Assembly (NCBI GenBank): GCA_001799715.1
Contig: MGTZ01000021.1
Span: 51,846-105,698 of the forward strand
DNA length: 53,853 nucleotides
Direction of reading: 5' to 3'
Origin: Elusimicrobia bacterium GWB2_63_16
GTDB taxonomy: Bacteria; Elusimicrobiota; Elusimicrobia; Elusimicrobiales; UBA9959
In this document: piece by piece, positions 44,458 to 53,853 of the stretch
How the letters are laid out: each line of letters opens with the position of its first letter
Numbering within the stretch: the stretch's first letter is position 1
Notes under the pieces: generated by a model
Told to the model about the DNA's origin: nothing
Database searches by the model: none
Seen by the model: only the letters and a program-made list of their open reading frames with translations
Program-made: the position numbers and the translations under genes

Positions 44458-46758
44458 TTAGTCGCTGAGCACGGTGGGGTCGGCGAAGCGGTCGCGCAGG
44501 GCGTTGGCGTTGCCCAGCTGCTCGCCGTAGCCGGCCTGCAGGTTATTGTTGTACATGTCGTAGCTGTTGGCGATGTTCTCCTCGCCCTTGATGCGCTTGT
44601 CGGTACGGAGGTCCATCTTGGCGTAGATGTCCTTCACGTCCACGAGCTGTATCAGCACCTGCATCATGTTCTCGTAGCCCACGCGGCTCTTGCCTTTGCC
44701 GCCCAGCACCTGGGAGAGGCGCGCGGCGCGGGCCTTCTGGTCGCCCTCCTCGCGCACGCTGGCTATGTCGGCGATGATGCGGGAGGCGTTGGTGCAGAAG
44801 GAATTGACCACGGAGAGCGGGTCGAAGCTGTCGTCCTGGCGCTCGTAGTCGCTGAGGATCTTGCGGGCGGCCTTCCAGTCGTAATCCACCTTGCCCTCTT
44901 TGTCCATCTTGAAGAGGTGGCGGACCTTCTCGAGGATCTCGCGGTCCAGGCCTTCCATCACGTTGAGCACGGCCTTCATCACGCTGATGGCGGGGGCCAC
45001 CAGGATGGAGTTCACGGCCTTCTGCGTGAAGACCAGGGAGAAGGACATCAGCGCGGATTTATAGCGCTTGCTGTCGAGCACCGGGTTGCCCCACTCGTCG
45101 GTCTCGGTGGAGTTCGCCGGGTCGAGCCTGGGGAACAGCGAGTTCGCGTCCACCATGAAGTCCTTGTTGACGCCGTTGCCCTGCACGCCGGCGAACTTCA
45201 GGATCTCGTTCATGTTCTCCACCATGCCGCGGGCGTCGCGCTCGTCGTGCTTGATGTACCCCTCGTAGCGCTGGTAGACCACGGCGGCGTCGGACACCTT
45301 GCCGCCCTTGTCCTCGTAGTTGACCACGTAGAAGTTCTGGTTGGTGTTGTGCTTGAAGATCTTGCCCACTATCGGGATATTGATGTTGCTGACCGACTGG
45401 TTCTTGGAGGCGTTGTGCACGTGCAGCACCTGGTCGCTGTCGGTGGTCTGGTAGCGGTCGTAGCGCTGGCCGGAATTGGATTCGCTGTGCATCACCACGG
45501 GCAGCACGATGTTCATGCCGTTGGAGGTGCCGTTGAAGTGGTTGGCGCCGGCGAAGGTGGAGTTAAGCCCCAGGCCCTGCGAGGCGACTTCGTCCACCTG
45601 CTGCATGGCGGCGGCGCCGGCGGCGTTGTCGTCCATGTCGGTGAAGTCGTTAAAGCGCACGCCCATCTCGATGAGGCGCTTGATGATGCTGAGGTCGCCC
45701 TTCAGGAAGTCGACCAGCTTGGCGACCTGCTGGGGGTTCTTGGGGTCGATGATGAATTCGAGCAGCAGTTTCTTGCCCTTGGCGCGGCTGTGGGAAACCC
45801 CGAACTTGAGGGCTATGTACTTGTTGAATTCCTTAACGATGCTCTTGTTGATCTCTTTGCCCAGGGCCTCGATGAAATAGGATTCGGCTTCCGGCAGACC
45901 TATCATGCCGGCGTCGAAGGAGGTGCCCACGGAGGCGCCGGCGCTCTTGACGGTGATGCGGTCCAGGCGGATGCGCATGCGCAGGCGGTTCTCGTCCATC
46001 TTGAAGAGGGTGACGGAGGGCTTCATCTCCTTGGAGGTACCCAGCGAGAAGGCCACGTTAAGCCAGGGCTGCACCGGGTAGCCCAGGCCGCCGCTGACGC
46101 CCAGGTACATGCGGGCGGGGAATTTCCAGATCTCATTGACCTTCATCTCGCCTATGCGCTTCTCGTTGATGGGGAGGATGGTCTTTACTTTGCGCAGGTC
46201 GGCCAGCTTCAGCAGGTTCTTGCAGTACTTGCTCTCTTCGGTCTTGCGCACCACCACCGACTTGCCCTCGAGGCCGCCGGAGAAACCGATGTTGAAAGCG
46301 TTGCCGTTGACGTTGAAGATGTCGGTAAAGGTGTGACCGGCGTTCAGTTTCACGCCCACTTCGTCGATCACGGCGATCTTGTTGTCCGGGTACTGCTTCA
46401 TGTAGCGCTTGAACTTGCCTTCCACGCCGGCGATGTCGGCAATGTCGAAGCCGGCTTCGATCGGGATCTCCACGTCTTTACAGATGTCGTCGAAAACGTC
46501 GCTCTTGAGGTCTTCCCAGAAGTGCAGCAGCTCGTTGTTGCCGGGCTGGGGCTGGGAGGGCTGGGCCTCGGGAGCTTTGGGATCCGGCACGCCGGCGGCG
46601 CCGGAGCGCAGGCCGTTCACCAGGTCGGCCATGGAGCCTTTGTCGGCTCCCTCGAAGAAGGAAGAGAAGTCATTAGCGCGGGCCGGCGCGTTCAGCGCGC
46701 AGACCAGCGAGAGGAAAACTACCGCGGATTTGATGGTGGTGGTTTTTTCGTGATTCAT
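44458..46758 (-). CDS. Large secreted protein of unknown family
   Basis: A 766-residue protein with a signal peptide (VVFLSLVCALNAPARAN, cleavage near 29). A Pro/Gln-rich linker (about 60-73) precedes a mixed alpha/beta body with few cysteines. One segment (about 165-260) has strand pairs such as MYLGVSGGLGYPVQPW and RLRMRIRLDRITVK that could be part of a beta barrel or BPI/TULIP-like fold; from about 560 it is mostly helical (SVMKAVLNVMEGLDREILEKV). No enzyme motif seen. The start has no Shine-Dalgarno and a TAAACT hexamer lies 7 nt upstream. Divergent from the FnIII gene. Possibly lineage-specific. Confidence 0.6.
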   Translation of the reverse strand: MNHEKTTTIKSAVVFLSLVCALNAPARANDFSSFFEGADKGSMADLVNGLRSGAAGVPDPKAPEAQPSQPQPGNNELLHFWEDLKSDVFDDICKDVEIPIEAGFDIADIAGVEGKFKRYMKQYPDNKIAVIDEVGVKLNAGHTFTDIFNVNGNAFNIGFSGGLEGKSVVVRKTEESKYCKNLLKLADLRKVKTILPINEKRIGEMKVNEIWKFPARMYLGVSGGLGYPVQPWLNVAFSLGTSKEMKPSVTLFKMDENRLRMRIRLDRITVKSAGASVGTSFDAGMIGLPEAESYFIEALGKEINKSIVKEFNKYIALKFGVSHSRAKGKKLLLEFIIDPKNPQQVAKLVDFLKGDLSIIKRLIEMGVRFNDFTDMDDNAAGAAAMQQVDEVASQGLGLNSTFAGANHFNGTSNGMNIVLPVVMHSESNSGQRYDRYQTTDSDQVLHVHNASKNQSVSNINIPIVGKIFKHNTNQNFYVVNYEDKGGKVSDAAVVYQRYEGYIKHDERDARGMVENMNEILKFAGVQGNGVNKDFMVDANSLFPRLDPANSTETDEWGNPVLDSKRYKSALMSFSLVFTQKAVNSILVAPAISVMKAVLNVMEGLDREILEKVRHLFKMDKEGKVDYDWKAARKILSDYERQDDSFDPLSVVNSFCTNASRIIADIASVREEGDQKARAARLSQVLGGKGKSRVGYENMMQVLIQLVDVKDIYAKMDLRTDKRIKGEENIANSYDMYNNNLQAGYGEQLGNANALRDRFADPTVLSD

Positions 46759-46944: not shown

Positions 46945-47011
46945 CAGTTTCGGCGGTAAAGTATTTCACCGCGAAGTTTTAAGGGGTTTGGCTCATCCAG
47001 AGGTATATTCG

Positions 47012-50000
47012 ATGAAAAGAACAGGATTTCTATCCTTAATATTGCCGCTTTTATTGATTTGGGCCGCAGGTACGGCTCATGCGGCAGTCTCAAAAACCTC
47101 CAAAAGAGTAATCCGCCTGGTTTCCAATCCAGCCATCACAGTAGTACCGGGCTTCACGGCCGGGGCAAGTGCCACCACGGCTCTACAATGGAGCTGGTCC
47201 ACTGGCTCGTTCACCGGCTCCGGCTTGACCGGCTATAAACTCTATACCTCCAGCGCGGCTGGCACCCACATATCTCTCGCGCTCAACACCAGCTATTATA
47301 TTGATACCGGCCTGGAAGCGAACAAGGCCTATACGCGCTGGCTTACGGTCTACGATGCCACCGAAGAAGGCAGCGACACTGAGCACCTGCAGAAGTATAC
47401 CTACGCCATCCCGCCGGCTGAAATAGCTATCTCCTCGGATGCCCCTACGGCCGCCCCGACCGTCAACTCCCTCTCCCTGCCTTGGGCCAGGCTCACCGAC
47501 ACCATTGTTTCCACCAGCGCCTACGTGGAGATACCGCCCGCGTACTGGTTCCCCAACACGGTGCACGCAAGCGCCTACGTGGTGGAATGCTCCACCGACG
47601 GCGGGGCGACCTATGTCCGCAACCGGGCCTTCTTCGTGCCGTGGAACACCTTCCCCACCCTTAGCAACCGGCATTACATGATAAGGGTAGGCGCCGTGAA
47701 CGGCGACGAAGAGCTGACCCCTGGAGTTTACAGCGCCACCAGGACCTTCACGACCCCACCGCTTACTCCGGAGAACTTCACGGCCGTGGCCATCTCCTCC
47801 TACTCCATCCAATGGCGCTGGGGCAAGGATATATTCGCGGGGACAGATATCACCGGCTTCAAAGTTTACCATTCCACCATCGCGGCGGAAGACGTGCTGC
47901 CGGAAGCCGGTGATATCGGGGAACCTGTGGCCACGCTGGGGGCCAATACCAGCTACTGGACCGAGGTTTACGTGGACAGCGCAGCGGTCCTTACGGCGAA
48001 CTCGCGCCATACGCGCTGGATCAAGGCCGTGGGCTACCTTGAAAGTGAAAAATCCGCCACCCTCCAGAAGTACACATATGCCATAGCCCCCGGCTCCGCG
48101 ACTGCGGTATGGCTTGACCCGGATCCTTATTGGGTGGCCCATGTCCAAGAGCAATCCCTCTCCCTCAACTGGCCGATTATCGGGGTATCCTCCACGGTAT
48201 TCGGTGACCAATGGCGCCTGGGCATAGCCTCCCAGTACGTGATGTATCATTCTACCGTCTCCGGCTTCACGGTGGCAGTGACATCGACGATAGCGGGTTC
48301 GCCCCCGCAGTCCGTAACGGGCCTGACGGATAACACCAAATACGACCTGCGTATAGGCGCCATCAACGGCGACGGTGAACAGACGCCTGATGACGCCATG
48401 AATCCGTATGCTTTCAGCCAGACCTACAGAGTGATGACCCGTCCCGAGCCCCCATCCAACTACACCTGCGGCTCCTGGACGGATACGGCCATGCGCTGCA
48501 CCTGGTCCACCTCCACCTACGTCAACGCGGACTATATCGAAGGCTACAGCTTGGGAAAGCTTCGTGTTTGCCACGCCTCGGACGGCTCGCCGGTCGACTG
48601 CTGGAACCCCTTGGATTCCCTGGCCGGAGTGGCCAGCCATGAATACAGCCTGGACTACCTGGAAACCAACAGCACGCACACCATCTCCATCTGGGTGAAC
48701 CAGCAGGACCCCGCCTGGGTGGCGGGCAACCCCCATTTTGACGCGAGCCCTAAGGAATGGGAGTACTATTACTACAACTTCGGCAGCTACCGGCTGGATA
48801 AGGGCGGTGCCACCTTCGCCACGCCGCCCAGCGATGTAGCCTTTGACACCGTCACGGCGCGGTCAATAAGCATCTGGTGGAAGCATCCGGAAGTCCCGGC
48901 CACCTCCTACAGGATAGAGCGCGCCACCACCACGAAGGAAGCCGGCCCCTGGGTCTTCGTCTCCAGCTCTACCGGCAACAGGTATATAGACAGCGACCTG
49001 ACCCCGCTTACCACCTATTCCTACCGCTTAGGCGCGATCAACCTGCTGGGCGTACAGACCACCGGGCTTGCGGCCGCTACAAACGGCCAGCGCCGCGACT
49101 ACAGCTTCCTCAGCAGCACAATGACGAAGCACACGTCGCCGGCGATCTACGGCGTCGCCTACGGCACCAGCGCCATCTCCTGGTCCTGGACCGACAGTAC
49201 CGCCGGCGTGCTTTCCTACAACATCTACGACTCCACCTACGGCCTGCTCACTTCCGGTCTGGCCCCCTCTGCCACCTTCTGGCTGGAGGTGAACCTCTCG
49301 AGCGCCAACACCAGTTATACCCGCAATATCGCCTCACTGCGGGCCGACACCGGCGTCGGCGAGTACGGCGAAGTTTCGGCCGTCACCTTAGCCAACCCCC
49401 CGGCGGCGCTGGCCGCCACAGCTACGGGCCATCACAGCATATCTCTCGCCTGGTCCGGCAACGGCGGCACGCGCTACAGCCTTTCGCGCTCACCGGACCT
49501 GCTCACCTGGACGCCGCTGAAAACCTGGAGCGATGCGCTCACTTCCGCCGCGATCACGGACTCAGGCCTCCAACTGGATACCACCTATTATTACTCGGTA
49601 AGCGCATACAACTCCGAAGGCCGCGTTTCGCTTTCCAGCGCCACTTCGGCCGCTATCCTCACGCTGGGGCTTCCCGCCGGAGTAACCGCCGTCTATTCCA
49701 CGGCCACTATCGCACAGTCAATAACAGCCCCGCTGCCCGGCGTGGGCCAGGTCGCGGTGTCGCTACCGGCCGGGGCGATTACCGAAAACGGTTATGTCCG
49801 CGTAAGCACCAGCGCGGCCACAGTGCCGGTGGATATCTCAAAGGCCTCGCTTGACGCGGCAACGCTAGCCTTCGCGCCGAACGCAGTAGTTACCGGGTCC
49901 ATCCTCGAGTTGCACTACTACAACCTGTTCGGCGCCGCCATGACTGGCAACTTCGCCAGCCCGGCAAGAGTGGCCATCACGTACACCGACGCCAACGGCG

Positions 50001-50488
50001 ACGGCGTACTTGACGGGGTAACGCCGCAGGCCCCCGTCGACACGCTAAAACTCCTCTCCCTGGACACCACAGCGGGGGAATGGGTTCCGTTGAGAGATTC
50101 CTTTATCGACAGGACGGGCAAGACGGTATACTCCGACATAAGTCATTTTTCGTTCTACTCGCTCGGCAGCATTATCTCCGCGGCCGGCGAACTGGAGGAC
50201 AGCTTCGCCTACCCGAACCCCTACAGGCCCGGCAGTTCCGGCAGCTTCGGGAACACCTCCTTTGGCGAGGGGATTGTCTTTGAATCCCTACCGGCCAGAT
50301 CCAGGATCAAGATCTATAACACGGCAGGCGGTTTGGTAAGGGAAGTATCCGACGGCGACGGTGACGGACGCTGCCTGTGGGATGGCAGGAACTCCAACGG
50401 AACCGCCGCGGCCTCAGGTGTATACATCTACCTGGTGAACTCCCCGGCAGGCGGGAAAAAGACAGGACGCATATCCATCATCAGGTAA
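47012..50488 (+). CDS. Secreted FnIII-repeat surface protein with type IX-like C-terminal domain
   Basis: The frame opens at a TTG at 46988, but the ATG at 47012 has AGAGG upstream and starts a proper signal peptide (MKRTGFLSLILPLLLIWAAG): 1158 residues. About seven fibronectin III-like repeats follow, with recurring signatures (TAVAISSYSIQWRW, TSAISWSWTDSTAG, LATNTSYTR-type strands). About 890-1050 is a ZU5/FlgD-like region. The last ~90 residues (from YPNPYRPGSSG to GVYIYLVNSPAGGKKTGRIS) match the type A sorting tail of type IX secretion substrates. The following gene encodes a PorV-like protein, the shuttle that such tails use. Codon third positions seem less GC-biased than the neighbours. 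Confidence 0.82.
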   Translation: MKRTGFLSLILPLLLIWAAGTAHAAVSKTSKRVIRLVSNPAITVVPGFTAGASATTALQWSWSTGSFTGSGLTGYKLYTSSAAGTHISLALNTSYYIDTGLEANKAYTRWLTVYDATEEGSDTEHLQKYTYAIPPAEIAISSDAPTAAPTVNSLSLPWARLTDTIVSTSAYVEIPPAYWFPNTVHASAYVVECSTDGGATYVRNRAFFVPWNTFPTLSNRHYMIRVGAVNGDEELTPGVYSATRTFTTPPLTPENFTAVAISSYSIQWRWGKDIFAGTDITGFKVYHSTIAAEDVLPEAGDIGEPVATLGANTSYWTEVYVDSAAVLTANSRHTRWIKAVGYLESEKSATLQKYTYAIAPGSATAVWLDPDPYWVAHVQEQSLSLNWPIIGVSSTVFGDQWRLGIASQYVMYHSTVSGFTVAVTSTIAGSPPQSVTGLTDNTKYDLRIGAINGDGEQTPDDAMNPYAFSQTYRVMTRPEPPSNYTCGSWTDTAMRCTWSTSTYVNADYIEGYSLGKLRVCHASDGSPVDCWNPLDSLAGVASHEYSLDYLETNSTHTISIWVNQQDPAWVAGNPHFDASPKEWEYYYYNFGSYRLDKGGATFATPPSDVAFDTVTARSISIWWKHPEVPATSYRIERATTTKEAGPWVFVSSSTGNRYIDSDLTPLTTYSYRLGAINLLGVQTTGLAAATNGQRRDYSFLSSTMTKHTSPAIYGVAYGTSAISWSWTDSTAGVLSYNIYDSTYGLLTSGLAPSATFWLEVNLSSANTSYTRNIASLRADTGVGEYGEVSAVTLANPPAALAATATGHHSISLAWSGNGGTRYSLSRSPDLLTWTPLKTWSDALTSAAITDSGLQLDTTYYYSVSAYNSEGRVSLSSATSAAILTLGLPAGVTAVYSTATIAQSITAPLPGVGQVAVSLPAGAITENGYVRVSTSAATVPVDISKASLDAATLAFAPNAVVTGSILELHYYNLFGAAMTGNFASPARVAITYTDANGDGVLDGVTPQAPVDTLKLLSLDTTAGEWVPLRDSFIDRTGKTVYSDISHFSFYSLGSIISAAGELEDSFAYPNPYRPGSSGSFGNTSFGEGIVFESLPARSRIKIYNTAGGLVREVSDGDGDGRCLWDGRNSNGTAAASGVYIYLVNSPAGGKKTGRISIIR

Positions 50489-50521
50489 CCAGCCGGGGCT
50501 GTTGCCCGGAGGAGAATATTT

Positions 50522-51472
50522 ATGTTTAAAGTTTTAATACCAGCTCTATTCACCGCGCTCCTGCTCCCGACCGCCGGCCACGCGGGGGAAGAGGGATATT
50601 CCGGAGCGCAGTTCCTCCGCCTCGGAGGCGGGGCAAGGGCCGCAGCCATGGGAGATTCGGCCGCGGCCAGCGGCGGAGCACAGGCGATGTTCCACAATCC
50701 CGCAGGCCTGACCGGGGCCGTTGCGACCGAGCTGCTCTTTTCCCATGCCAAGTGGATCGCGGACCTGAATTATTCCAACCTGGCGGCGGTACGGAACAGC
50801 CCCGGAGGCGCGTACGGCCTGGCCGTCAGCTACCTCTCCTTCCCGTCAACCGATAAGTACGACAGGCTGGGCAACAAGTTATCAGAAAGCTATTCCGCCT
50901 CCGATATGTCCGCGGCCGTTGGTTTTGCCAGAAAGTTCGGTGCCGCCACAGACCTTGGGGTCAGCGTGAAATACGTGCGCAGCGTCCTGGAGGATGAAAC
51001 AGCAACGGCGGCAGCCGCCGACGTGGGTTTCAGACATGAGGCGATAAAGGACAAACTCCGCTTAGGTCTAGCCCTGCAGAACGCGGGCACAAAGCTCAGG
51101 TACATAGAAGCGCAGTCCCGCCTCCCGCTGACGCTAAGATTTGGAGGAGAATACACTCTCCACTTGCCCCATGAGGATGGCATGCGCAAGCACATTACAT
51201 TCGCCACAGAATTTAGCCACCTGAAGGATGCGGGCGTTTATGCCGGGGCCGGTATAGAGTTCGGCACTAGTTACGACAAAGGGAACCACTTCGCCATGCG
51301 CCTGGGCTATCGGACTAACAAGCTCGGCAGCGCGTCAGGGATTTCCGCCGGCCTGGCCGTGGACATGAAATCCTCCATAGCGGAATACGCCTACGCGCCC
51401 ATGGGCGATCTGGGCAACACGCACAGGCTTTCTTTAACCGTTAAATTCGGCAAGCAACCCGGCGTGAAATAA
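50522..51472 (+). CDS. PorV/PorQ-like outer-membrane protein
   Basis: A 316-residue protein with signal peptide (PALFTALLLPTAGHAG) and a 14-strand-type beta barrel. The N-terminal GAQFLRLGGGARAAAMGDS and AMFHNPAGLTG are the signature of the PorV/PorQ (UPF0164) family. In Bacteroidota PorV carries type IX cargo from the translocon to the attachment complex. Here it is 33 nt after a protein with a type IX-like tail, GGAGGAG before the ATG. No SprA/PorT/PorL homologue is in the window, so a full system is not shown. Confidence 0.87.
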   Translation: MFKVLIPALFTALLLPTAGHAGEEGYSGAQFLRLGGGARAAAMGDSAAASGGAQAMFHNPAGLTGAVATELLFSHAKWIADLNYSNLAAVRNSPGGAYGLAVSYLSFPSTDKYDRLGNKLSESYSASDMSAAVGFARKFGAATDLGVSVKYVRSVLEDETATAAAADVGFRHEAIKDKLRLGLALQNAGTKLRYIEAQSRLPLTLRFGGEYTLHLPHEDGMRKHITFATEFSHLKDAGVYAGAGIEFGTSYDKGNHFAMRLGYRTNKLGSASGISAGLAVDMKSSIAEYAYAPMGDLGNTHRLSLTVKFGKQPGVK

Positions 51473-53246: not shown

Positions 53247-53853
53247 ATGAAAAGAATTACGATGATAGCGGCAGCGGCAATGTTCGCGGGAGCGAACCTC
53301 GGTTTCGCCTCAGGCCCGGAGGGGCTGCGGTCCGGCGGGGACGGCAGTCTTAACGCGTTGGCCGTAAAAGCGGCGGCGCTGAAAGCCGCCGGGGCGGCCA
53401 AAGACGTTTCCCCCATGCCCGGCTTTGCCAAAGCCTTCGCGCAAGAGAACGGGCTAAAGGCGGCGGCTTCAGCCGAAGCGCTCTCCTTAAATATTAAGGC
53501 CAGGGACGGGATCAGATTGAAGACAATAGTAGTCTACATGTCCTCAAGCGACTCCCTTTCCTGCACCCACGCGTCTTATTCCGACGGCGCTTATAACCGG
53601 GTCCCGAACGTTTTCGACAAGGAGATCCCCGCCGCGGTATCCGGAGAGCTGAACAGGATAAAGATAGGGATGACGCTCAACGACAACTGCCGCTCGCAGG
53701 CGGTGGGGATGGCGATAGAGGCCGTTCACCCCGCGATCCCGGAGGATTCCAACAGGATAGCGATCTCCCTGAGCGCCTCGAACCAGGATTCGCTCGTGCA
53801 GCGGATAATCTTCACTCAGTACAACTCGCCGTATATCGGCATTTTCTACGGCA
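53247..53853 (+). CDS. Secreted protein (partial, C-terminus off the right edge)
   Basis: From the ATG at 53247 (GGGAGC upstream) the frame stays open to the window end: 202 residues. A signal peptide (MIAAAAMFAGANLGFAS) is followed by an Ala-rich helical stretch and then a beta-rich domain with DSLSCTHASYSDG and IGMTLNDNCRSQAVG; its two Cys could form a disulphide. No recognised family. Confidence 0.65.
   Translation, partial: MKRITMIAAAAMFAGANLGFASGPEGLRSGGDGSLNALAVKAAALKAAGAAKDVSPMPGFAKAFAQENGLKAAASAEALSLNIKARDGIRLKTIVVYMSSSDSLSCTHASYSDGAYNRVPNVFDKEIPAAVSGELNRIKIGMTLNDNCRSQAVGMAIEAVHPAIPEDSNRIAISLSASNQDSLVQRIIFTQYNSPYIGIFYG

Follow-up and report, generated by a model that had tools for sequence, protein, structure and literature searches.

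In the window analysed here, a stretch of 53,853 nucleotides from Elusimicrobia bacterium GWB2_63_16 (contig MGTZ01000021.1, positions 51,846 to 105,698), a gene for a fibronectin type III (FnIII) protein with a C-terminal sorting-type tail is followed by a gene for an outer membrane barrel. This arrangement raises the question of whether the two genes belong to a type IX secretion system (T9SS) and, if so, whether the barrel serves all cargos in common or belongs to this cargo alone.

The published background is given here from excerpts of the cited papers. A survey of 2016 found the T9SS in Bacteroidetes only (PMC4793230), and a review of 2024 described it as limited to the FCB superphylum (PMC11205867). 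In F. johnsoniae PorV serves the type A cargos, while type B cargos require a cognate barrel of the PorP/SprF kind, whose gene commonly lies immediately downstream (PMC12618676). PorP-like barrels have been proposed as anchors (PMC9143113), and PorV and PorQ have been described as holding PorU and PorZ (PMC5562754). Within the excerpts covered by our literature search, which had most subscription papers and all preprints outside its scope, no description was found of SprA or of cognate PorV pairs in Elusimicrobiota; the excerpts of PMC7031533, PMC12204202 and PMC8542988 likewise held no such type IX description for this phylum.

The gene pair of the window

The cargo gene lies in an open reading frame (ORF) running from 46988 to 50488, with a probable ATG start at 47012 and a signal peptide (MKRTGFLSLILPLLLIWAAGTAHA). 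It is followed on the same strand by the barrel ORF, whose product of 316 aa has, as judged by eye, a signal peptide of its own (Table 1). The initial annotation had taken this second gene for a PorV/PorQ-like barrel, which was confirmed by a score of 154.3 bits with PorV_fam (NF033709; curated cut-off 90). The barrel was closer to the PorQ model (E 1e-30) than to the PorV model (E 4e-18). Searched alone against PDB it returned only two S-layer proteins (E 0.3-0.4), its relation to known structures needing a profile, and a scan of the genome contigs with this single protein gave no relative. The tail of the cargo scored below all curated cut-offs (TIGR04183, 15.8 vs 23 bits; CHU_C, 24.5 vs 27; FlgD_ig, 23.5 vs 27), its top match being the C-terminal end of the PorZ model (E 7e-11).

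Table 1. Features of the cargo-barrel gene pair, in positions of the window.
Feature	Position	Strand	Evidence
Cargo: signal peptide, FnIII domains and C-terminal sorting-type tail	47012..50488	+	ORF; five fn3 stretches (PF00041, E 2e-21)
Tail at the C-terminus of the cargo (94 codons), with a divergent T9SS CTD / FlgD-Ig-like fold	50204..50485	+	Profile A1, 99 bits at C21:102049-102330; PDB neighbours of A1
Spacer, 33 bases, with Shine-Dalgarno-like GGAGGA; cargo and barrel genes in the same frame	50489..50521	+	Sequence
Outer membrane barrel of the PorV/PorQ family, the putative cognate partner of this cargo	50522..51472	+	NF033709, 154 bits vs 90; Foldseek PorV 8gl6_F

Two other secreted-looking ORFs lie close to the pair, at 44458-46758 on the minus strand and 53247-53853 on the plus strand. 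Neither had a Pfam match at E<=1; in NCBIfam the former had no match and the latter a single one at E 0.16.

Tail and barrel families

Seventeen tails were scanned at E<=0.01. All of them matched TIGR04183, the T9SS type A sorting domain, so that the type A-like sorting tail earlier ascribed to the FnIII protein holds for the family, with the window's own tail below the cut-off. The PorZ model was matched by 15 of the tails, the PorU model by 13, the FlgD model by ten and the type B domain TIGR04131 by two. Among the Pfam families, FlgD_ig was matched by 12 tails, and Por_Secre_tail and CHU_C by ten each. A tail profile (A1), for which 17 tails from the 20 pairs described below were used, ranked PorZ (E 2e-10) and PorU (2e-8) ahead of FlgD (8e-7) in PDB, followed by a fly NHL-type protein (2e-5) and by T9SS sorting domains of translocon structures (4e-4 and 7e-4). 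The assignment of these tails to one type is not clear-cut. Of nine cargo bodies scanned, four contained fn3, and Kelch, SBBP and PQQ propellers, an M6 peptidase and other domains were also identified; with bodies this varied, the tail is a module carried by different proteins.

All 16 barrels scanned matched PorV_fam, and no PorP model (PorP/SprF family) was found among the family matches listed for them. The top match of the barrel profile A3 in PDB was PorV (E 1e-34). C-terminal extensions were identified on paired barrels, namely LysM (C57) and TPR (C36, C28 and C60), and a TPR extension was also present on an unpaired barrel (C45); such LysM or TPR extensions would be consistent with attachment to the cell wall. 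Matches to LysM, CsgG/TolB_N-like and HEAT were noted at the C-termini of the PorV-family barrels at L034:3373-4830, L056:8596-9966 and L053:2141-3538. An alignment of 16 PorV members was too diverse for patterns to be read from it.

Pairing of cargo and barrel genes

The window's genome, 91% complete and 2.87 Mb long over 62 contigs, contains 29 distinct ORFs matching NF033709 (30 places, two of them within one ORF). Among 14 control genomes PorV_fam was matched in one, Bacteroides ihuae, below the cut-off. A tail gene is located immediately upstream and on the same strand in 20 of the 29 PorV-family ORFs, with gaps of -4 to 234 bases (fewer than 35 bases in 17 of the 20 pairs), and the two-gene unit that had been proposed for the window is thereby a recurrent arrangement in this genome; nine barrels have no tail gene immediately upstream. 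The tails of the 20 pairs were first judged by eye, and all 20 were afterwards matched by the tail profile.

The initial annotation had also called for a count of such tails and of the barrels belonging to them, and this count favoured pairing. At E<=0.01 profile A1 gave matches at 30 places; as a single ORF holds four of these, they correspond to 27 distinct tail ORFs, a number biased by the composition of the profile towards that kind of tail. Twenty of these ORFs immediately precede a barrel, one is a second cargo standing in tandem before such a pair (C60), one lies immediately after a barrel (C61), and no barrel adjoins the other five (C7:40148, C30, C28:54830, C20:56977 and C20:73775).

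In 79 named loci, mostly of Elusimicrobiota and chosen on the barrel, 64 of 82 barrels had a same-strand tail ORF within 400 bases upstream, a figure that takes in one weak pair (L207, E 4e-4) and leaves out two whose overlap exceeds the limit (L174 and L221); a C-terminal tail was present on 71 of the 2820 mechanical ORFs of these loci. Both pair counts, that from the 29 barrels of the genome and that from the 79 loci, start from barrels. Given the size of the genome and its 29 barrels, we would expect well under one adjacent pair by chance, and the pairing of cargo and barrel is not due to chance.

The barrel relatives in named genomes carried mostly the titles Elusimicrobia or Elusimicrobiota; by title, five of the 79 loci fall under other phylum names and nine are given only as “bacterium”. 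The nearest eight relatives were 80-88% identical to C60_58184, another barrel of the same genome, which stood first in the query.

Predicted docking and co-divergence of tail and barrel

Tail, spacer and barrel of the window were predicted as a single chain with a pLDDT of 86.3 and a pTM of 0.85, and a second natural pair (L200) predicted in the same manner gave 88.0 and 0.84. Residues with pLDDT>=70 made up 84% of the window chain and 86% of the L200 chain, which puts the pTM near the value for a rigid tail-barrel body; for a freely placed tail we estimate a pTM of about 0.65. These two cognate single-chain predictions suggest that the tail sits firmly against the barrel. In a Foldseek comparison the first match of the tail and barrel model was PorV of the RemA-CTD-bound translocon (8gl6_F, E 8e-13), with FadL/TodX ranking after PorV.

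Distances between tails and distances between barrels were correlated across 19 paralogous pairs (Spearman 0.47, Mantel p 5e-4), which are 19 of the 20 pairs, one having been left out for its masked bases. Without one near-duplicate the correlation was 0.43 (p 1e-3), and tail and barrel pointed to the same nearest neighbour for only 5 of 18 paralogues. An alignment of joined chains with loose tails (A5), in which the tails were seemingly misplaced onto the barrel part, was left unused.

The SprA homologue and its co-occurrence with tails

A search of the genome for SprA, which the initial annotation had proposed, identified a homologue in a 1776-codon frame on contig C8 through TIGR04189. As a protein it scored 127 bits (E 4e-37), below the curated cut-off of 200, which may explain why routine annotation would miss SprA. 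The homologue alone had no match in PDB at E<=1. A profile built from it and 20 relatives of the phylum (A2) matched, among 177,635 PDB sequences, only F. johnsoniae SprA (two sequences, E 7e-36 and 1e-35), with three stretches passing and their order kept. The Pfam model SprA_N (PF14349) matched neither the window's genome nor any of the 14 controls and, since it was silent in all 14 controls, this is an uninformative test and not a sign of SprA being absent. The case that had been named as speaking against a type IX-like pair, namely a plain FlgD-like tail in a genome with neither SprA nor GldKLMN, is not what was found: a SprA homologue is present, and PDB places PorZ and PorU over FlgD.

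Among 149 genomes of the phylum, TIGR04189 was matched at E<=0.001 in at least 129, the curated cut-off being passed in none of the 149 (best two candidates per genome); none of the 14 controls was matched at this threshold, and at E<=1 one was, Thermus composti. The best candidates scored per genome numbered at most 2 for TIGR04189, 13 for PorV_fam and 36 for tails, and the match counts are lower bounds. Tails were found in 123 of the 129 genomes with SprA versus 4 of the 20 without it (Fisher p 2e-13, confounded by kinship), and within genus g24 in 12 of 14 versus 1 of 12 (Fisher p 2e-4); these counts were made by hand, two unlisted genomes (G139 and G141, by elimination) being counted as tail-less. 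The members of g24 without SprA mostly have smaller genomes, so that general genome reduction is part of the co-loss. Six genomes with SprA gave no tail match, and the four with tails and no SprA match (G048, G075, G117 and G143) are assemblies of 110-280 contigs.

The surroundings of SprA were inspected by eye in 21 loci. Genes resembling lptF and lptG are located upstream on the opposite strand in 17 of them, and an unsecured same-strand cluster is found downstream in 17, with a comF-like gene there in L100; no motor gene was recognised near SprA in the 21 loci.

Profile A2 also matched 10 of 12 genomes tried, whose titles include Aerophobetes, Poribacteria, Desantisbacteria and Dependentiae, binning errors being possible. 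SprA homologues are present in G149, G150, G152 and G153, the genomes of L191, L206, L211 and L218, and in L211 and L218 the tail gene precedes the barrel too.

Other type IX components

The search for PorU, proposed together with that for SprA, came out negative: its sortase family (C25, PF01364) was found in one of 41 genomes and was absent from that of the window. GldM had no match in the window's genome, GldL had one weak match in the 41 genomes, and the GldN model matched nowhere in the 41, in searches that included no known-T9SS genome. The only Peptidase_C25 matches of the 41 genomes, G006:C83 and C55 (L229 and L230), are two pieces on separate contigs, each covering one half of the model.

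Proposed mechanism and alternative explanations

We favour, with a probability of roughly two in three, an export route that is type IX-like and SprA-based, each cargo having a PorV/PorQ-type barrel of its own that probably acts as a lasting anchor and not as a shared shuttle. The type IX-like interpretation of the first reading is thus supported, and so is the partnership of cargo and barrel, while the word “shuttle” would probably be better replaced by “cognate anchor”.

The sequence of export, binding and anchoring that we infer makes the pair of the window one of about 20 cargo-barrel units of such a route. The cargo would reach the periplasm by means of its signal peptide, as its sequence indicates, and would cross the outer membrane via the SprA homologue. 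Its Ig-like tail would then be caught by the PorV/PorQ-type barrel coded immediately downstream, a docking suggested by the two structure predictions, and the barrel would most likely stay bound as a dedicated anchor and not be recycled as a common shuttle. Three observations favour a lasting anchor: tail and barrel are mostly one-to-one and adjacent, the C25 sortase family is absent from 40 of the 41 genomes, and extensions such as LysM and TPR are present on several barrels. A wider proposal, which we put forward tentatively and at somewhat below even odds, is that SprA-based export occurs outside Bacteroidota without a PorU sortase or a recognisable Gld motor, the own PorV/PorQ barrels of type A-like cargos being lasting and sometimes cell-wall-tethered anchors, and that this may be an older version of the type IX system, or one reduced independently, spread across several little-known phyla.

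An ordinary T9SS, in which interchangeable barrel shuttles would pass all cargos to a PorU-type sortase and gene adjacency would reflect co-regulation only, is unlikely. Such a system would account for the joint finding of SprA, PorV-family barrels and sorting-type tails, and the 5 of 27 tails without an adjacent barrel would need a shared one. However, the C25 (PorU) family occurs in a single genome of 41, there are about 20 divergent barrels, each next to its own cargo, and the type A cargos of F. johnsoniae are reported to use one common PorV (PMC12618676).

It is highly unlikely that the PorV-like barrel is itself the export pore for its partner, independently of SprA, as in two-partner secretion. 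One-to-one gene pairs are typical of that pathway, and one-to-one gene pairs are what is seen here. Yet the barrel is of the PorV/FadL class, whose members are reported to be 14-stranded and to bind CTD cargo, the pore itself probably being SprA (PMC9143113), and tails are mostly missing where SprA, found in at least 129 of the 149 genomes, is missing.

The least likely explanation, a plain FlgD-like Ig tail beside a FadL-type uptake barrel, neither of them serving the secretion of a partner, can point to FlgD_ig in 12 of 17 tails, to the extra FlgD-Ig-like copies within the body of cargo L057 and to FadL/TodX among the structure matches, but TIGR04183 matches all 17 tails, PorZ and PorU outrank FlgD for the tail as PorV outranks the FadL class for the barrel, and the adjacency of the genes and their co-occurrence with SprA would be left unexplained.

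Relation to known systems

The proposed SprA-based route with cognate anchors resembles the T9SS type A pathway of P. gingivalis and F. johnsoniae (type A CTD, PorV shuttle and PorU sortase) in its SprA homologue, its PorV-family barrel and its type A-related tail. It differs in having many barrels, mostly one per cargo, in its host phylum, Elusimicrobiota, in the near absence of the C25 sortase family (1 of 41 genomes) and in GldL, GldM and GldN being unrecognised, in a search that included no known-T9SS genome. With the type B pathway (type B CTD and PorP/SprF, as in SprB-SprF of F. johnsoniae) it shares, according to the excerpts covered, the order of a cargo followed by its own barrel, the specific pairs and the proposed anchoring role of the barrel. 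Unlike in type B, the barrel is of the PorV/PorQ family instead of PorP/SprF, and TIGR04131 is matched by 2 of 17 tails versus 17 of 17 for the type A model, although Pfam CHU_C still matches ten.

A further likeness is found in the attachment complex of P. gingivalis, where a secreted protein is retained at the cell surface by a PorV/PorQ barrel of its own, at about 1:1 (PMC5562754, in the excerpts covered); the tail profile is nearest PorZ and PorU, and the window barrel nearer the PorQ than the PorV model. In contrast to that complex, the cargos here are FnIII, propeller or peptidase proteins and not sortase parts, and there are about 20 pairs in this genome. In their gene logic the pairs follow type B, and their parts are of the PorZ-PorQ kind. 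If this is true, the conserved SprA and the set of cognate cargos and barrels would constitute a protein export route for Elusimicrobiota, and type A-like tails would be able to work with dedicated barrels. The roughly 20 natural tail/barrel pairs of one genome offer material for recognition studies.

Very large and very small cargos

In G000, one open frame, 12,767 codons long and free of N, occupies contig C36:58234-96534 (L095, L096 and L052). It has a signal-peptide-like start and a sorting-type tail, its product is estimated at more than 1 megadalton, and a PorV-family gene with TPRs follows 234 bases on. By comparison, L042:4612-4959 and L033:8508-8906 encode cargos of 116 and 133 aa, barely beyond a signal peptide plus a tail, and each is followed immediately by a PorV-family gene with TPRs. 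The mini-cargo of L042 lies behind a tail-bearing frame of 6,032 codons (101 N inside), which makes two cargos for one barrel.
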